This document shows positions 251-62,895 of a stretch of 64,000 bases of DNA, piece by piece. The DNA is from Myxocyprinus asiaticus (lineage: Eukaryota; Chordata; Actinopteri; Cypriniformes; Catostomidae), in the NCBI RefSeq assembly GCF_019703515.2, contig NC_059346.1:13733001-13797000 (forward strand), written 5' to 3'. Position 1 is the first letter of the stretch; the number at the start of each line of letters is the position of its first letter. A model generated the notes under the pieces. That model did not search any database. It was not told the DNA's origin and saw only the letters and a program-made list of their open reading frames with translations. Position numbers and translations under genes: made by a program.

Positions 251-45661
<45,411 letters not shown>

Positions 45662-46751: not shown

Positions 46752-48738
46752 AAGGTGCACTCAGTAACTTGGACTTACACTGACACCTAGCGGCTTGGAT
46801 GTAGCATCATTTAAAATCAATAGTTTTCGGTTTCAGATGCCATTGAAGAAATTTTGTATTCACAGTCAGCCATGATTACTTTAATCAATGAGTGAAAGTG
46901 TCAAATAACAGGATTGTTACTGAAATTAAGCGAGTAGTATTCAGCTGGTCATGTGATTCTAACATGGCAGCCCCCATGTGCGGACCCTCTCCATGTAGAC
47001 TAAAACAGCTTTTATAAGGTTCCAGATATGACTGGAGTGTTCATTTTAATGTGAGTGGTCATGATTTCCTACATACAGTTGTGCTCAAAAGTTTGCAGAC
47101 CCTTGGAGAATTGGTAATATATGTACCATTTTTAAAGAAAACATGAGTGAGCAGGCAAAACACATTTCTTTTATTTCTTATGGGATTCATATTCAACTGT
47201 AGGTTATAACAGAATGGCACAATCATAAAACATAACATGGCAACAAAGAAAAAAATGAAATGACCCCTGTTCAAAAGTCTGCATACCCTTAATTCTTAAT
47301 ACTGTGTATTGCCCCCTTTAGCATCAATGACAGCGTGCAGTCTTTTGTAATCGTTGTCTATGAGACCCCAAATACTTGCAGGTGGTATAGCTGCCCATTC
47401 GTCTTGGCAAAATGCCTCCAGGTCATGCAAAGTCTTTGGTCGTCTTGCATGAACCACACGTTTGAGATCTCCCCAGAGTGGCTCGATGATATTAAGGTCA
47501 GGAGACTGTGATGATCTCTCTAGAACCTTCACCTTTTTCTGCTGTAACCACTGGAGGGTCAACTTGGCCTTGTGCTTAGGGTCATTGTCATGCTGGAAAG
47601 TCCAAGAGCGTCCCATGTGCAGCTTTCGTGCAGAAGAATGCAAACTGTTGATAACATGCTGCATTCATCTTGCCATCAATTTTCACAAGAATTCCCGTGC
47701 CTTTAGAGCTCACACACCCCAAAACATCAGTGAGCCACCACCATGCTTCACAGTGGGGATGGTATTCTTTTCACTATAGGCCTTGTTGACCCCTCTCCAA
47801 ACATAACGCTTATGGTTGTGACCATAAAGTTCTATTTTGGTCTCGTCACTCCAAATTACAGTGTGCCAGAAGCTGTGAGGCGTGTCAAGGTGTTGTTGGG
47901 CATATTGTAACCAGGCTGTTTTGTGGCATTGGCGCAGTAAAGGCTTCTTTATGGCAACTCGACCATGCAGCTCATTTTTGTTCAAGTATTGTCACCATCT
48001 TTTTCCAGAGCAGCCTGTATTTCTCCTGAGGTTACCTGTGGGTTTTTCTTTGTATCCCGAACTATTCTTCTGGCAGTTGTGGCTGAAATCTTTCTTGGTC
48101 TACCTGACCTTGGCTTGGTATCAAGAGATTCCAGAATTTTCCACTTTTTAATAAGTGATTGATCGGTACTGACTGGCATTTTCAAGGCATTGGATATCTT
48201 TTTATATCCTTTTCCATCTTTATAAAGTTCCATTACCTTGTTATGCAGGTCTTTTGACAGTTCTTTTCTGCTCCCCATGGCTCAGTATCTAGCCTGCTCA
48301 GTGCATCCACGTGAGAGCTAACAAACTCATTGACTATTTATACACAGGCACTAATTGCAATTTAAAAAGCCACAGGTGTGGGAAATTAACCTTTAATTGC
48401 CATTTAAACCTGCGTGTGTCACCTTGTGTGTCTGTAACAAGGCCAAACATTCAAGGGTATGTAAACTTTTGATCAGGGCCATTTGGGTGATTTCTGTTAT
48501 CATTATGATTTAAAAAGGAGCCAAACAACTATGTGATAATAAATGGCTTTATATGATCACTATCCTTAAATAAAGATCATTTTGCATGATCAGTCATATT
48601 TTCAAAATCAATGCCAAAATTTCACCATTTCTGCCAGGGTATGCAAACTTTTGAGCACAACTGTATATTGCAAAATTACAATTCATGTCTTTAGGAGTTA
48701 AACTTTTTTAATGAGGAAAAAAATGAATGAGTGCACCT
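46752..48738. mobile_element. Older repeat split by a Tc1 insertion
   Basis: The left edge TGAAAGGTGCACTCAGTAAC and the right edge TGAATGAGTGCACCTTTA are inverted ends of one element, now separated by the Tc1 copy at 47076-48663. Removing the Tc1 leaves about 400 bp. The right edge matches the fragment at 17655-17707. Confidence 0.7.
47076..48663 (-). mobile_element. Tc1-like transposon, full length, broken transposase, copy 2
   Basis: The ends CAGTTGTGCTCAAAAGTTTG and the inverse GCAAACTTTTGAGCACAACT then G are flanked by TA (47074-47075 and 48664-48665). The minus-strand transposase begins MGSRKELSKDL at 48278 and ends DAKGGNTQY at 47296. It has a short deletion near 47990, the frame change at about 47708 shared with copy 1, and another shift near 47650. 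The first Asp (WSDETKIEL) and second Asp (FQHDNDPKH) are readable, as is the Glu (DLNIIEPLWG). It is 1588 bp, intergenic. Confidence 0.93.
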
Positions 48739-53248: not shown

Positions 53249-53670
53249 TTATTGGTCACTAGAGCGTTCCAGGTTTTCAATCACTCTGCTCAAACGAATG
53301 TTGAGAAGTCGGATCTGGGTGTCCAGGTGGTCAATCTTCTCTTCCAGAGTTCCGGCTCCGCCCCCTTTCCACCAGTAAGCTCCTACCGGTCCAGTCATGA
53401 AGTACACTGCCATGATGAAGCACAGCGGTATCACCGCCTTTTCAGGGTCGCCCTCAAACTTCTGTAGAACGTACAGGCATGAGAGAGTGAAAAGTGCCAC
53501 ACGGGCAAGCCAGAAGAAACGGCCAAACACAGCATGGAGGATGTAAAAGAAGCCGCTCAGGAACAGGGACAAGAACCAGTAAGCTACCAGCAAGGCTGCC
53601 ACCAGAAGGAGAGCACGAGCCGGAGAACTGGATACGGATGATGGGCTGAAGTAGTGAGTCAGGTTAGAGG
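53249..53670 (-). CDS. bri3bp: bri3bp exon 3 (stop codon)
   Basis: It encodes the three membrane segments and the charged C-terminus ending ERSSDQ. The acceptor CCAG follows a CT repeat (53673-53720 region, GA on the plus strand). Confidence 0.94.
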
Positions 53671-54708
53671 CTGGAGAGAGAGAGAGAGAAGGAAGGAAAG
53701 AGAGAGAGAGAACCAAAGATAGAGAAATAAAACCAGATTGGAGGGAACAGAGACAGAAACAGAAGAGGAAGGAGGGAGAGAAATTAAGGAGGTTTTAAGG
53801 ACTTTGTTTTGCATTAGACAAACTCTGCAGTAAGACACTGTTGTCATTAACATGAATAAATAAATCAATAAATGAAGCAATTCTGATCCAGACTTACAGT
53901 CAATCCCCATAACATCCAGCAGATCCACCCAGAGTTTCCACAAGGTGTCCAATATTGAATCAACTCCATTAACAAACCTCTCTGTGGTCTTTGAAAAGAA
54001 CTGCAAAAAAATAAAAATAATTGTATTATTATTATTATTTTTTAATAACTGAAGACTGGAAGAATTGCAAATATATATTAGGGTTAATCTAAATGTAAAA
54101 CATTTTTTTTATATATAATTATTCATATACATGAAGGACTGATTTGTTAAGAATTATATAATGCATGTGATTGTATTATTAATTAAATTATTATAAAGTG
54201 TTCCCAAAATCTTAATCTAAACCTGGATGATATAGTAGCAGGTTCTTCACCGATCAGACACTGGTTACATCTTAAACCTAATGACCTACTACCAGAATTT
54301 TGGAAATCACAAAAGTTTGAACGGTTTTATTTATCCCAAAAATTCGCATCGAACGCGCGTATCATGCCCGTATGTTCACTAGGTAGGCAGCTCAGCAGGT
54401 GATGAGACACAGCCACTGATAGCTGGTACTCTCTGTAGGCCCTTATTAAATGCAACTTGGAAAAAAAAAAAACTGCGTGTCTAAGTTTTAAATGACTACA
54501 TGAGATTATTGCATGATCTTATGTGGACCTTGTAGAGAGCCCTGATGTTATCCTCTCCGAAGACATTACTGAGGGTTTGGTAGAAGCCGCTGGCCGCCCT
54601 CCTGAAGCTGTTCTGGCTGCTGGAGTCTTTCCTGCTCCGCGCTGCTTCAGACAGGAAGACACTTGCCAAAAGCACGCTCAAAACCACGGCCAACCTCGCT
54701 CTTTTCAT
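53249..54708 (-). CDS. bri3bp: BRI3-binding protein, complete, 3 exons
   Basis: BRI3BP is a small multi-pass membrane protein of ER/mitochondrial membranes, linked in mammals to apoptosis sensitivity; its biochemical role is not settled. Exons are 54529-54708, 53898-54000 and 53249-53670. The phases join, giving 234 codons. Residues 1-22 form a signal-like hydrophobic start (MKRARLAVVLSVLLASVFL). SNVFGEDNIRALYK (exon 1) and ERFVNGVDSILDTLWKLW (exon 2) match the family. Hydrophobic segments lie at about 114-139, 146-163 and 174-195, followed by a charged heptad-like tail (about 203-230) that probably forms a coiled coil. FGRFFW and YFMTGP are conserved family blocks. The exon 1 donor GTCCAC is weak after the GT, but the phase demands it. 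The start is the ATG at 54708, just before the signal sequence. Confidence 0.93.
53898..54000 (-). CDS. bri3bp: bri3bp exon 2
   Basis: It encodes residues 61-94: FFSKTTERFVNGVDSIL, then WVDLLDVMGID. The acceptor is TTGCAG and the donor GTAAGT. Confidence 0.93.
54529..54708 (-). CDS. bri3bp: bri3bp exon 1
   Basis: Sixty codons: the signal-like N-terminus followed by SFRRAASGFYQTLSNVFG and DNIRALYK. The phase is zero at its end. Confidence 0.9.
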
Positions 54709-56308: not shown

Positions 56309-56750
56309 TCAGTTGGATTTGAAATATTTCAGTATGTTGTGACACTGGCTGCTTTGAGAAGCAGTCTTCTTGTCTCTGGTATTGGAGATTTTTTGTGAGT
56401 GTTTTGTGGGGATTTTTAGGACAGGTTTCTGTGGTCTTCACTCTGTCAGTAACTCTCTCTGCACATCAGCAGGAAGTTGAGAGAATACATAAGGGTCCAC
56501 ATTCGGAGGCACATCTGATTGAGGGGGGTGGGAGGGATACCACAGCATTCTGTGGCTTTCCCATACTCAGAATTGACTTCCATGGAGGAGTGGGGTGTGG
56601 AAAAGGTCTCACTGAGTTCACAATTATGAGAAGCAGGATTTCTGCTATAATTCAGTGCTGACTCACAAAATGCTGATGCTCTTGGTTGGCTGAAACCCAA
56701 TATAGAGTGATCTGTGGGGCTGGAGCCAATCCCAACTACCTCAGGCTGAA
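56309..56750 (-). pseudogene. poli: poli relic last exon (ubiquitin-binding motif 2, PIP-like tail)
   Basis: After a run in one frame ending GIPPTPLNQ, the frame shifts near 56520 into SDVPPNVDPYVFSQLPADVQ then RELLTE and TGA, where human has LLAEW (a Trp codon turned to stop). The old frame continues to KKTASQSSQCHNILKYFKSN and a terminal stop at 56309-56311. The tail resembles a PCNA-interaction sequence. The 5' edge of this exon is uncertain. Confidence 0.85.
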
Positions 56751-57493
56751 GGCAGGAAAACACCTTAAACAGGTAGAATCTCACTAACACCTACTGCCAA
56801 TTTAGAGTTTCCAATTGACCTGACCTGCATGTTTTTGGACTGTGGGGGAAACCAGAGCATCATGATACATGAACATGGTAATCGTTCAGTACCATGGTAT
56901 AGACACCAGTCTGGTTCCGGAAGTAAAAATCCCATGAATTTATCCCATAGACGAATTGGTTTTCAACGATAACTTATAAACCTTTAAAGTCAGACATACC
57001 TTGACCTCCGACGTTGTACATCGATGGTATCGGCTTCTGTTGAAACCATCCATCTGCGTTATTTTAACTTCATTGTTTAAAAATTAACAACTATTACCCA
57101 TGGTCCAGCAGAGAAAGCTTTACCAGTCAGAAAACCGCAGCAAACGAAGACAACGAAACATGCTTTATTTGCAATGCTTCATGGGATTGTAGTCCATGCC
57201 GTCATGAATGATGGTAAGTACACAGCCTTGTACCTTTATGTCTTTTTGTCCAATAATTTTTTGCCTCAAAACAAAGTTTGTGATGTTGTGATTTACCTTA
57301 GAGCTGGTTGGTTTGGTTCATGGCTTACAACACTTTTATGAAGAATTTAATGAAAAGTCTATGGGAAATGAATTGGAACCCAGAGGACTGAATAAGTGGC
57401 CAGGCACTGTTGTGCTCTATTACCACCACAGTACTTTTTGGTAATGGTAGGACTAACAAATCAGTAAAAAGGGAAAGCAGAGATGGAGAATAC
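56751..57493. other. poli relic intron; expected exon(s) not found
   Basis: Human POLI encodes the little-finger domain between exon 6 and the last exon. No trace of it was recognised on the minus strand here. The stretch near 56880-57230 resembles dispersed fish repeat DNA. Confidence 0.5.
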
Positions 57494-57672
57494 CTGAGGA
57501 GGCCCTGACGGTGTGACTGGAGAGTCATCAATGCCACAGGCGAGGTTCTGAATTCTTTTAGTCATTACTTCCCCAAACTCCCTCACTAGTTAAGGCAGAG
57601 GGAATAACTGCAGATCTTGCACACTGACTAGACCCAGAGCCGTCTACTTCTCACCTGTCCTGTATCCAATTC
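57494..57672 (-). pseudogene. poli: poli relic exon 6 with two stops
   Basis: It reads GIGYRTGEK, TAG, then TALGLVSVQDLQLFPLP, TAA, then LVREFGEVMTKRIQNLACG and IDDSPVTPSGPPQ. It aligns without shift to the helix-hairpin-helix/thumb part of human POLI (GIGYKTAK, then SPVILSGPPQ). The acceptor AAAG and donor GTATTC survive. Confidence 0.92.
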
Positions 57673-57726
57673 CTTTAAAAACACAGCCAATTCCATGAAA
57701 CACAGATTTTTATAGAACATCCACAG

Positions 57727-59012
57727 TAGTGCCCAACCGATATATCAGTCGGCCGATATTAGCCTTTCACCGATATATCGGTATCGCCATATATTTTACC
57801 GATATGCACCGATATGAAAACTTCAGAACATATAATGCAGAAAACAATGCTTTAGAATTGGTGTTATAGCGTAGTTTGTCCAGCAGAGCACCCTCCGACT
57901 CTATTGTTTACAGAGCTGACTCTGAACTGACGGTGGCTCTGCAGACAGGGTGGAGTTCAGCGGTGTCATCACAGTATGTTGTTAACTAGTTTGTTAAATA
58001 CATACTAGAAACTTAATATACAATGACCTAATCATTTTCCCTTTTCAATATAACTAATGTAACATTAACCTTGTCCCTGACAACCATGTCACTCATGTCT
58101 GTTTGCTGTTAGCCAGCTATAGTTTGTCAGTGCAGTCAGTAATGTAGCAGATTGAAAGGTAAACATCAGAGAATCTTTTTGCAGCTCAGCAGACAACGGT
58201 GCGGTAGTGGATTGTGTCTGCTGAGTGTTGATTTCACGCTATGTTATTACATTGGTGAGACAAAATGCTGGAAAGTAAAATAAACAATGTCTGTCTTTTA
58301 CTCTCCGTGACAACGAGCTTATAGCTAACTGGCTAATCACGTAGCTTCTTTCATTGTTGTCAGCTGAGTGGAAGCTAATGAGTAAACATGTATTCACCAA
58401 ACTGTTTTCTTCAGGATTCACAGTTTGGTACCCCCTTCAACCGAACAATTCCAGTCATAGCATTTATAAAATGTAATATTTAAAAGTCTGGTTTTCCACC
58501 GTTGAAAGTTTCCCCTGAACCTGTATAGCAGAATACGGTGTAACACTGCTGCTTATCTGTTTATCTTGACTCAGCAGTGTTAATATAGTCAGCATTTGAC
58601 TGATACTAAACAGTAGTACTGATGTTTATTTAGCTATTTATTTTATTTTTATTTATTCTTTATTTTAATGGTCTGCAATTGACTGATAATAAACATACAG
58701 TACTGATGTTTATTTAGCTATTTATTGTATTTTTATTTATTCTTTATTTTCTCAGTGTTCATTTCTAGAATTTGTTGACAATGTATAATAATAATGTCAA
58801 ATATTCTTTGATAAAAATATTTAAGAAATCAGCCTTCTGAGTACCTCTGTATAGTCATATCGGTGTAAAATTGGTGAAAAATCCACATAGAAAAGGTCTG
58901 TTTTCATTCCAGCTCAAAAATTATATATATCGGCCACCATATCGGTAATCGGTGAATTTTCCCTCTCTAAAATCGGTATCGGTCTCAAAAATCCCATATC
59001 GGTCAGGCTCTA
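57727..59012. mobile_element. Non-autonomous hAT-type element, family A copy 3 (inverted)
   Basis: Reverse orientation relative to copies 1 and 2: it starts TAGTGCCCAACCGAT and ends ATCGGTCAGGCTCTA. Perfect 8-bp duplications ATCCACAG flank it (57719-57726 and 59013-59020). About two copies of the internal minisatellite remain (58595-58760). It is 1286 bp and inserted in a poli intron. Confidence 0.92.
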
Positions 59013-59140
59013 ATCCACAGTATGACATGCTTGCCATGGGTAGCACCAGAGGTCTAAGAATCACATAAATCCCAACTATCGTTGGTACATCGTCTTGCAT
59101 TAACAAGATCATGGCTTGTGAGTCATTCTTAACAACTTAA

Positions 59141-59380
59141 CAGGCAATTTACGTGGTGCTGTGAGGCTGCTTATGAGCTCTGCAATGCTGTATGGCATAA
59201 GTGTGGTCTGCTGGTTGGGTATAAAGGTGCCTGACACCAGCTTGGCTAAGAGTTTGTTGTGAGCAATACCAGCACAGCCAGTTAGTCCCAGTGTGCTGAA
59301 CATGGCCTGCCTGGCCTCTGCTGCTACCATAGAGCCAACAGCCAACCAAGCATTCTCCTCGTTAATCACCACATCCGAAG
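59141..59380 (-). pseudogene. poli: poli relic exon 5 with lost splice donor
   Basis: An open exon reading SDVVINEENAWLAVGSMVAA then EARQAMFSTLGLTGCAG, NKLLAKLVSG and PNQQTTLM. The next exon starts one base into a Gly codon, so the exon should end CCTG followed by GTAAGT. The sequence is CCTG then TTAAGT, which implies a G-to-T change at the donor. Confidence 0.9.
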
Positions 59381-59572
59381 CTGAGTAAAGAGTTCATCAT
59401 TTAGCAGAAGCTTTCTTACCCAAAGTGGCATGCAATACACGACAATACAGTACATCTATAGCAACTAGAGTATCTTTTGGTTGCTCAAGGGCACAATTAT
59501 GATTAGGTGATCCCAGTAATTCTCCAGTTCATCAATCATAGATTATTAGATCCATTACCACTAAGCTACCCC

Positions 59573-60548
59573 TAGAGGTCAACCGATATATCCGTTTTAA
59601 GGCACAGTCAAATTTAACTTTGCACGGTGAAATTCCACAGGCGAAATACAGACATCTCAATGGGAATCCACAAAATGGACTTCCAGTGGCGAAGAATTTC
59701 CCCTAACGGATTTCGCATGGAGTTCAAGTTTGGTGATCTTTGACAGGCGAATTTGCCGAGCTGACCAGTAGTAGGTTGCTTGGTTTGGCAGTGACCTGTG
59801 TGGGTGAAGCTTCGTACACAGCTACACTGAATATTCACAAAAGAAAAGGATATAATTTTCTTTTTAACTTAACTTACACAGAGTATAAAGTCTAGCATTA
59901 AAAAGCAGCAGCTTGGCTACTTGTTCTTTGCTGGTTTCACACGAGTTCAACATCTGCCCACGCCTTCTTCGCCCACGGTATTCTGCGTGCAAAGGTAAAT
60001 GTGATTGCGCCTTTACCGATTAATCAGTGCCGGATTACTTTTTGGAAGTATCAGTTATCTGCTAAAATCAATGCCGATAATTGTGAAAGGTTTTATTTTA
60101 TTATTATTATTCCTCTGTGTTCCTCTGGAACTTATTGCTCATTCAGAATTTATAGCCCATATGACAGTGTTTATTTTATTGTGTTTCTATTGTAATACAT
60201 TGTAGAGGTAGATGATTGTAAGAACTGGAAACTCACACTTTTCAAAATAAGAGTCCCTTTAAGAATCTTAAATTTCTTTGGTTATTATTGGGATTCTAGT
60301 TGCACAATAAACTGCACCTGAGATATTATTCATTTTGGACTCTTGTTGCCTCTATGGCTGTGCCCATTACAGTAATTAAAGATTAATATACATATATAAA
60401 TATATATATATATAGATATATAATATTTTATTTTTTATTTTTTTTACATTCAATAAATAGATTTTTCAAACTATCGGCTGATTAATCGATTATCTTTACC
60501 ATCAACTTAGTTATTGTATCTGCAAAATCCACTATCGTTTGACCTCCT
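59573..60548. mobile_element. hAT-like element, second family
   Basis: The left end TAGAGGTCAACCGATATATC and right end (inverted) ATCGTTTGACCTCCT pair. The flanking octamers GCTACCCC (59565-59572) and GCTACCAC (60549-60556) match at seven of eight. Internal TTACCGATTAATCAG and CTATCGGCTGATTAATCG blocks are sub-terminal repeats. It is 976 bp, non-coding, and lies between poli relic exons 4 and 5. Confidence 0.82.
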
Positions 60549-60603
60549 GCTACCACCACTGATTTTAAAACTATAAATGTGTGCTTATGGGGCTCATATT
60601 CAC

Positions 60604-60744
60604 ATTCGTGCTTTTATATGTTTCCGCTGAAGGAGAGATCTGAAATAAGAGTCTGCTTCAGTTATCTCTCCATTTCTGTAATTTCCATGAAGTTCTCATC
60701 AAATCCCAATTTCTCCACCAGGGGGCAGTATGACATCAGCAGTC
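60604..60744 (-). pseudogene. poli: poli relic exon 4 with two stops
   Basis: It reads LLMSYCPLVEKLGFDENF then MEITEM, followed by a deletion in the usual VEKR block and TAA (60662-60664). LKQTLISDLSFSGNI then reaches a second TAA (60614-60616), where the human protein has SGHVYNN. The acceptor is ACAAG. Confidence 0.9.
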
Positions 60745-60913
60745 CTTGTGAAAATAAAGTAAACTATATAACTTACAAGTCACTATAATATATTTCTGCT
60801 GTATACCCAAGAAACAAAAGATATAGACAGAAATTAATATTACAGCACACTGGGTGTGTAATAGGGGTTCTACTTCAATGAGTTTTTTTTTTTTTTTTTA
60901 TATTGTCACTTTT

Positions 60914-61341
60914 GGGGGCCTGGGTAGCTCAGCAAGTAAAGACGCTGACTACCACACCCGGAGTCGCAAGTTTGAATCCAGGGTGTGCTGAGTGACTCCA
61001 GTCAGGCTTCCTAAGCAACCAATTGGCTCGGTTGCTAGGGTGGGTAGAGTCACGTTGGGTTAACCTATTCGTGGTCATTATAATGTGGTTCTTGCTCTTG
61101 GTGGGGTGCGTGGTGTGTTGTGCGTGGATGCCGCGGAGAATAGCTTGAAGCCTCCACACGCGCTAGGTCTCTGCTGTAACGCGCTCAACAAGCCACGTGA
61201 TAAGATGCGCGGATTGATGGTCACAGGCACGGAGGCAACTGAAATTTGTCCTCCGCCACCCAGACTGAGGCGAGTCACTACGACACCAGGAGGACCTAGA
61301 GCACATTGGGAATTGGGCATGCCAAATTGGGGCGAAAATAT
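60914..61341 (+). mobile_element. tRNA-derived SINE, cypriniform type
   Basis: It starts GGGGGCCTGGGTAGCTCAGC. Pol III box A (TAGCTCAGCAAG, 60925-60936) and box B (AGTTTGAATCC, 60969-60979) are correctly spaced. A roughly 350-bp unrelated body follows, ending near CCAAATTGGGGCGAAAATA. I recall this sequence type as highly repeated in carp-like fishes. It occupies the interval where poli exon 3 should lie. Confidence 0.85.
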
Positions 61342-61467
61342 TGACACTTTTGATTGCATTAGTGATACTGGTGTTTTGTTAAAATGTTTTTACAAAAAGA
61401 CAAATTCCTTGTATATCTTATACTTGATGATTGAAGTCTAATGTCTTTTAAGTCTATGGTGTTATAC

Positions 61468-61582
61468 CAAGAGGTTTGTTCCAGAGTGCTGGATTTCAGA
61501 TCATCTCAACTTGTGCATAGCAGCAGTCCAGGTCAAAGTGCAGGATCACTCTGAGAGATGGCTGGAACTCTTTCAGTGCATC
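61468..61582 (-). pseudogene. poli: poli relic exon 2 with stop
   Basis: It reads LKEFQPSLRVILHFDLDCCY then AQVEMI, a TGA stop (61496-61498), then NPALWNKPLG. The human protein continues MISNPEL through this point. The conserved DCFYA has become DCCYA. The donor GTATAA follows the family's usual exon end. Confidence 0.93.
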
Positions 61583-61849
61583 CTGAAATGACAAGTCAGT
61601 CACAGTTAAAATAGTCAGCTGAATATACCAAACAGAGGCTGGTCACTATGAGGAGGTCTATTAATATTGACTGCAGAATAAAGCTATCATGAAATATTGA
61701 GCTGTGCAGCTGGACTGCCTCATAAACCACAGATAAATAAGAGTACCCCAAAAACCTTTTTAATAAAGCTCATACATTATTCTAAAATGAGAAACGGTCT
61801 ATAAATCATGCATTATAACATGGTTATCCAGCTGTAAGCCAGTGCCCAC

Positions 61850-61916
61850 CTGTCTCCAGCATGTCTGGCTCTAAGCTGCTATCCAACTCATTATCTTCAC
61901 CCGCGTCAGTATCCAT
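61850..61916 (-). pseudogene. poli: poli relic exon 1
   Basis: ATG at 61916, reading MDTDAGEDNELDSSLE then PDMLET, an acidic N-terminus as in polymerase iota. The donor is GTGGGC. With the nearest exon 2 acceptor (61582) the phase is off by one. It fits if splicing uses the AG just downstream (after GCACTGAAAG), so a frameshift here is not proven. Confidence 0.7.
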
Positions 61917-62710: not shown

Positions 62711-62895
62711 ATGTCGTTTCGGAGGGCAGCCAGACTGGTGTGCGGGTTCGCCGGCGGTTCTGCGGTGCTGGTGTTCGCGGCGGTCGTTGCAGACAAGCAC
62801 GGATACTTGAGAGAGCGTTTTCGCCTCAGAGAGACCCCGACTGCCTTGCATGCAGCATGGCTCGCTGCGAACGGCTGGGACTATAACTGGGACAA
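62711..62895 (+). CDS. pgam5: Mitochondrial phosphatase PGAM5, exon 1 only
   Basis: PGAM5 is a Ser/Thr/His phosphatase of the phosphoglycerate-mutase fold, anchored in mitochondrial membrane and involved in mitophagy and cell-death signalling. The exon encodes 61 codons plus two bases from an ATG at 62711. [20 protein letters not shown] is the N-terminal targeting and membrane segment (hydrophobic from about residue 8 to 27). Residues 56-61 are WDYNWD, the WDxNWD motif needed for PGAM5 multimer assembly. It ends GACAA before donor GTAAGA, so the next residue should be Lys or Arg, as in the human WDPNWDRRE. The catalytic RHG domain lies in later exons beyond the window. Confidence 0.92.

Follow-up and report, generated by a model that had tools for sequence, protein, structure and literature searches.

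In the genome of Myxocyprinus asiaticus, a fish of the sucker family (Catostomidae), contig C3 (NC_059346.1) carries a relic of poli, the gene for DNA polymerase iota (Pol iota), within the 64,000-nucleotide stretch analysed here (C3:13733001-13797000, hereafter the window). This relic is almost certainly one of two poli homeologs produced by the whole-genome duplication of the Catostomidae, with a structurally intact partner on contig C4 of the same assembly (2,340,685,280 bases in 345 contigs). A second, intact copy of poli is present, the genes neighbouring the two copies are collinear, the pairs of genes are of similar synonymous age, and the relic branches beside the C4 copy and razorback sucker Pol iota in a tree of fish proteins. 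Because of these observations, we conclude that one homeolog was lost after the sucker-family genome duplication. An earlier note on this DNA had proposed that, if the relic were the sole copy, the lineage had lost a Y-family polymerase; it had also advised a search of the assembly for another poli locus and named an intact polyploid partner as the finding that would overturn the idea. Such a search finds exactly that partner, in a collinear block on C4, and the proposed loss of the polymerase does not stand.

Identity of the relic and its partner on C4

The relic lies on the minus strand at 56309-61916 (positions without a contig name are those of the window). Its limits are exact, with the ATG at 61916 and the terminal stop codon ending at 56309, and it retains introns together with remnants of seven of the ten poli exons. 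Sequence comparison identifies it as Pol iota and not another Y-family polymerase: a single exon (59140-59384) matches human Pol iota structures at 3.6e-21, compared with 2.1e-07 for the best Pol eta. When the relic was read through and used as a query, the top three rows were cyprinoid Pol iota (best 120 of 434 proteins, E up to 0.001). Using tblastn with the Pol iota of Xyrauchen texanus (razorback sucker), exon 10 (6e-46), exon 5 (4e-36), exon 6 (8e-29) and exon 4 (2e-16) were recovered from the region, and this species also gave the highest summed tblastn bits on the relic among 14 fish proteins chosen from the matches. A processed pseudogene was rejected since introns and neighbours are both kept: intron stretches align with C4, and pgam5 and bri3bp flank both copies, as in an unprocessed pseudogene that decayed in place.

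The assembly was searched for poli in six frames with a cypriniform Pol iota (P0122) as query (E up to 10). Fourteen of the 18 matches fall in two poli loci: the relic on C3 accounts for five of them and C4:49915047-49926280 for nine. The other four have E values of at least 0.66. One C4 match (49920066-49920167) is listed with a TGA; it extends beyond the end of exon 7 at 49920160. The exons on C4, traced with the help of Xyrauchen Pol iota, resolve into a gene at C4:49915044-49926283 that has 10 exons, AG/GT at nine of nine introns and 719 codons, in which the only stop is terminal. Pfam detects IMS, IMS_C and the Pol iota thumb above cut-offs in the C4 protein, and one UBM barely above (23.4 vs 23.3 bits). 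The C4 homeolog appears, then, to be a structurally complete Pol iota gene that is presumably expressed. Xyrauchen texanus has an annotated Pol iota of 715 amino acids (P0252), which groups with the C4 copy and differs from it at many sites.

The order bri3bp-poli-pgam5 is the same on C3 and C4, with the C4 block inverted, and both neighbouring genes keep an open frame on either contig, without a stop among the 289 codon pairs of PGAM5 or the 234 of BRI3BP. Synonymous divergence (dS) between the relic and C4 poli is 0.199 (95% bootstrap 0.143-0.264), close to that of the neighbouring homeolog pairs (BRI3BP, 0.182; PGAM5, 0.220; intervals overlapping), and the Kimura two-parameter distance between C3 and C4 ranges from 0.141 to 0.187 across the eight intron and flank stretches measured. 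All three dS values are near the synonymous (Ks) peak of 0.184 given for the sucker genome duplication, Cat-4R, in the accessible text of the paper that describes a 2.58-Gb Myxocyprinus assembly (PMC8412299).

A protein-level FastTree phylogeny of 19 sequences (the relic, the C4 copy and 17 chosen fish proteins), covering 389 relic codons, places the relic as sister to C4 plus Xyrauchen with support of 0.998; the latter two group together at 0.999, and the placement of all three relative to loaches is without support (0.051). Of the 64 non-stop differences between the relic and C4, Xyrauchen shares the C4 residue in 53 and the relic residue in five; in the remaining six it has neither. By this pattern, the duplication that separated the relic from C4 is older than the split from Xyrauchen.

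Lesions, insertions and the course of decay

The lesions of the relic were mapped base by base against the intact C4 copy, a counterpart being found for 1189 of 2160 coding bases (389 of 719 codons). Disabling lesions comprise six stops, two frameshifts, two splice sites and two deletions (Table 1), and, judged by these stops, frameshifts, lost splice sites and missing exons, the relic cannot encode the enzyme. The start of exon 3 was recognised by tblastn (12 of 13 amino acids) and by nucleotide alignment (52 of 54 positions, including 15 nt of intron). At the junction that follows it, the blastn blocks between C3 and C4 break, leaving C4:49915723-49916409 without a counterpart on C3; the larger deletion likewise leaves C4:49919866-49925865 without one.

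The earlier note had described a poli gene that decayed in place, was not a processed copy and stood head to head with pgam5, all of which is borne out by the Pol iota matches, the introns and the synteny with C4. The nearest relatives of the relic are cypriniform. Its "at least six" in-frame stops prove to be exactly six in the 389 aligned codons, and the splice donor it saw as lost is that of exon 5 (GT to TT). Other parts needed amending: the single frameshift it reported is one of two (2 nt in exon 2 and 7 nt in exon 10), the six readable exons are real but a seventh remnant exists (the exon 3 start, 60806-60768, acceptor AG now GG), and the missing exons are indeed absent, which can now be refined to two deletions of ~0.69 kb and ~6.0 kb.

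Table 1. Features of the poli relic and its neighbours, in window positions
Feature	Position	Strand	Remarks
Exon 1 remnant	61850..61916	-	ATG and GT donor retained; nucleotide alignment to C4 exon 1
Exon 2 remnant	61468..61582	-	2-nt frameshifting deletion 61553/61552; stop at R52, AGA>TGA, 61498-61496
Exon 3 start	60768..60806	-	Acceptor AG>GG at 60808-60807; rest of exon gone
Junction of ~0.69-kb deletion	60760..60768		Removed the remainder of exon 3 and almost the whole of intron 3
Exon 4 remnant	60604..60744	-	3 nt deleted; stops at R145 (60664, AGA>TAA) and Y161 (60616, TAC>TAA)
Exon 5 remnant	59141..59380	-	Frame open; splice donor GT>TT at 59140-59139
Exon 6 remnant	57494..57672	-	Stops at L254 (57646, TTG>TAG) and E272 (57592, GAA>TAA)
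Junction of ~6.0-kb deletion	56719..56721		Exons 7, 8, 9 and first 401 nt of exon 10 removed
Exon 10, 3' half	56309..56719	-	7-nt frameshifting deletion 56525/56524; stop at W677, TGG>TGA, 56440; original stop codon kept
Stretch in intron 2	60876..61335		Absent at C4 site; related copy (72%) at C4:49927007-49927381
Stretch in intron 4	59600..60011		Absent at C4 site; 33-nt inverted ends
Insertion in intron 5	57729..59013		1.28 kb; 8-bp CCACAGTA repeated at both ends, single at C4 site
Stretch in intron 6	56900..57416		Absent at C4 site
pgam5 exon 1	62711..62893	+	Head to head with relic; other exons past the window, to C3:13802734
bri3bp, three exons, open	53252..54708	-	Last exon PF14965, E 2.7e-44

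Selection on the two copies was compared using the ratio of nonsynonymous to synonymous divergence (dN/dS). For the poli pair this ratio is 0.40 (0.27-0.61) when the stops are left out and 0.44 when they are included; the neighbours have 0.17 and 0.19, with intervals that overlap slightly with that of poli. When replacements were polarised by 14 outgroup proteins, 37 fell on the relic branch (five of them stops) and 20 on the C4 branch, with 13 unresolved; of the 160 sites that are invariant across 16 outgroups, 22 are changed in the relic and eight in C4. The excess of replacements is moderate, which points to a relic that probably spent some of its history under constraint. Applied to this excess, a rough model places the neutral share of the relic branch at 0.36 (0.06-0.8); applied to the stops, of which there are six compared with 3.7 expected for a wholly neutral branch, it favours an early loss (at least 0.6).

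The relic introns contain four stretches, 0.4 to 1.3 kb long, that are without counterpart at the matching C4 sites (Table 1); that in intron 5 may be a hAT-like insertion, to go by the length of its target site. Elsewhere in the window, an open Tc1-type transposase frame of 348 amino acids is found on the plus strand at 25831-26877 (DDE_3, 2.9e-18; HTH_Tnp_Tc3_2, 6.1e-13), and more transposase-like pieces, judged by eye, lie near 30123-31029, 35961-36443, 39394-40417 and 47296-47664.

Alternative explanations

In the homeolog loss described here, the C3 copy was deprived of its reading frame and splice sites, underwent two exon-removing deletions and gained intronic insertions; the C4 homeolog keeps the complete Pol iota structure, and the pgam5 and bri3bp pairs have remained open on both chromosomes. 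The loss presumably came about via redundancy rather than any advantage. A relic unable to encode the enzyme, with six stops, two frameshifts, two lost splice sites and missing exons, would also be expected of a unitary pseudogene in a lineage without any Pol iota, but the complete open poli on C4 of the same assembly, together with a 715-residue Xyrauchen protein that groups with the C4 copy, leaves this explanation with a negligible probability. A wider loss of Pol iota among cypriniforms was rejected separately, as it is countered by annotated proteins of ~690-730 amino acids in Misgurnus anguillicaudatus, Triplophysa rosa and several cyprinoids (best 120 of 1015). Equally negligible is an assembly or base-calling artefact on C3, in favour of which nothing was found: the neighbour genes on the same contig are clean, and because the 289 + 234 PGAM5 and BRI3BP codon pairs contain no stops, poor sequence is an unlikely source of the lesions. 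Furthermore, the relic shows deletions of kilobase size, an insertion flanked by an 8-bp repeat and more replacements at conserved sites than C4 (22/160 vs 8/160).

It is very improbable, if marginally less so, that the relic is a segmental duplicate of poli that decayed independently of the genome doubling. A large segmental duplication between chromosomes is formally compatible with a comparison spanning ~34 kb of C3, but the collinear block takes in pgam5 and bri3bp and is shared by two separate contigs, 67 and 63 Mb long, the dS values of the three genes are alike (0.18-0.22) and near the sucker-duplication peak, and the duplication precedes the Xyrauchen split. Some points do count against homeolog loss as we describe it. 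Homeology was compared over that ~34 kb of C3 (the window after 50000 plus 20 kb beyond) and 50 kb of C4. An initial search of the assembly for the family PF11799 returned no match; we take this as a limit of six-frame searches on intron-split genes, not as absence, because the C4 gene matches PF11799 once its exons are joined. Finally, the two estimates of the time of death agree poorly, overlapping only at 0.6-0.8.

The surviving copy and comparison with known systems

Exon 10 of the surviving copy (C4:49925465-49926283) carries three changes in its second ubiquitin-binding motif (UBM2), E672D, L674Q and T675R. The C4 motif is DLQREW, whereas the ancestral ELLTE is found at this place in 14 other proteins (two unnamed and 12 from named cypriniforms) and, as far as its stop, in the relic. 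E672 and L674 are invariant in all 16 aligned outgroups. The changes are common to Xyrauchen and are therefore not an error of this assembly. Pfam counts one UBM in C4 and Xyrauchen, UBM1 in both, and two in Culter, Cyprinus, Triplophysa and Chanodichthys; in Misgurnus it counts one, which is its UBM2. By our own mapping, E672 corresponds to human E698, which forms a salt bridge to ubiquitin according to the available portion of PMC8468184; replacing E by D is a mild change, and that portion does not list the human equivalent of L674 as a contact. If the change weakens ubiquitin binding, suckers might have fixed a Pol iota dependent solely on UBM1, the duplication having allowed a less ubiquitin-responsive enzyme to take the place of the ancestral one, but we consider this unlikely.

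Two further observations concern Pol iota of other fish. In Xyrauchen P0252, HFDQDC departs from C4 and the 16 outgroups at a site where all of these have L; the difference could be allelic, real or an error in the record, and the site adjoins what we take to be the catalytic aspartate. In addition, the annotated Pol iota of Misgurnus anguillicaudatus (P0253, 728 amino acids) contrasts with Misgurnus fossilis, in extracts of which Pol iota activity was undetectable according to the consulted sections of PMC5831811.

In Myxocyprinus, 54.7% of complete BUSCO genes are still duplicated (PMC8412299, accessible text), and return to single copy is therefore common; the loss of a poli homeolog in this fish is an ordinary outcome, not loss of the enzyme. 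This result corrects what would have been a striking claim, that a lineage of vertebrates lacks Pol iota, and illustrates the need to compare any pseudogene found in a polyploid genome with its homeolog. One well-mapped case is also added to the gene losses that followed the sucker genome duplication; the gene concerned acts in DNA-damage tolerance, and both of its neighbours are retained as pairs. In the open-licence literature, we found no report of poli loss in fish.

Compared with cypriniform POLI (Xyrauchen P0252, Cyprinus P0245 and Misgurnus P0253), the relic remains recognisable in its exon order, thumb region, UBM2 up to the stop and C-terminal ILKYFK tail, but unlike these it is without a usable frame, and exons 7-9, most of exon 3 and half of exon 10 are gone. 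Homeolog decay has been described in catostomids for RAG1, RAG2 and IRBP2, in which indels and stop codons occur and one copy may have been lost (PMC11673241, in the part available). As in those genes, and in the same fish family, one poli duplicate has gathered indels and stops and the other has been kept; unlike them, poli encodes a Y-family DNA polymerase, and its lesions have been mapped against the intact partner in one assembly.

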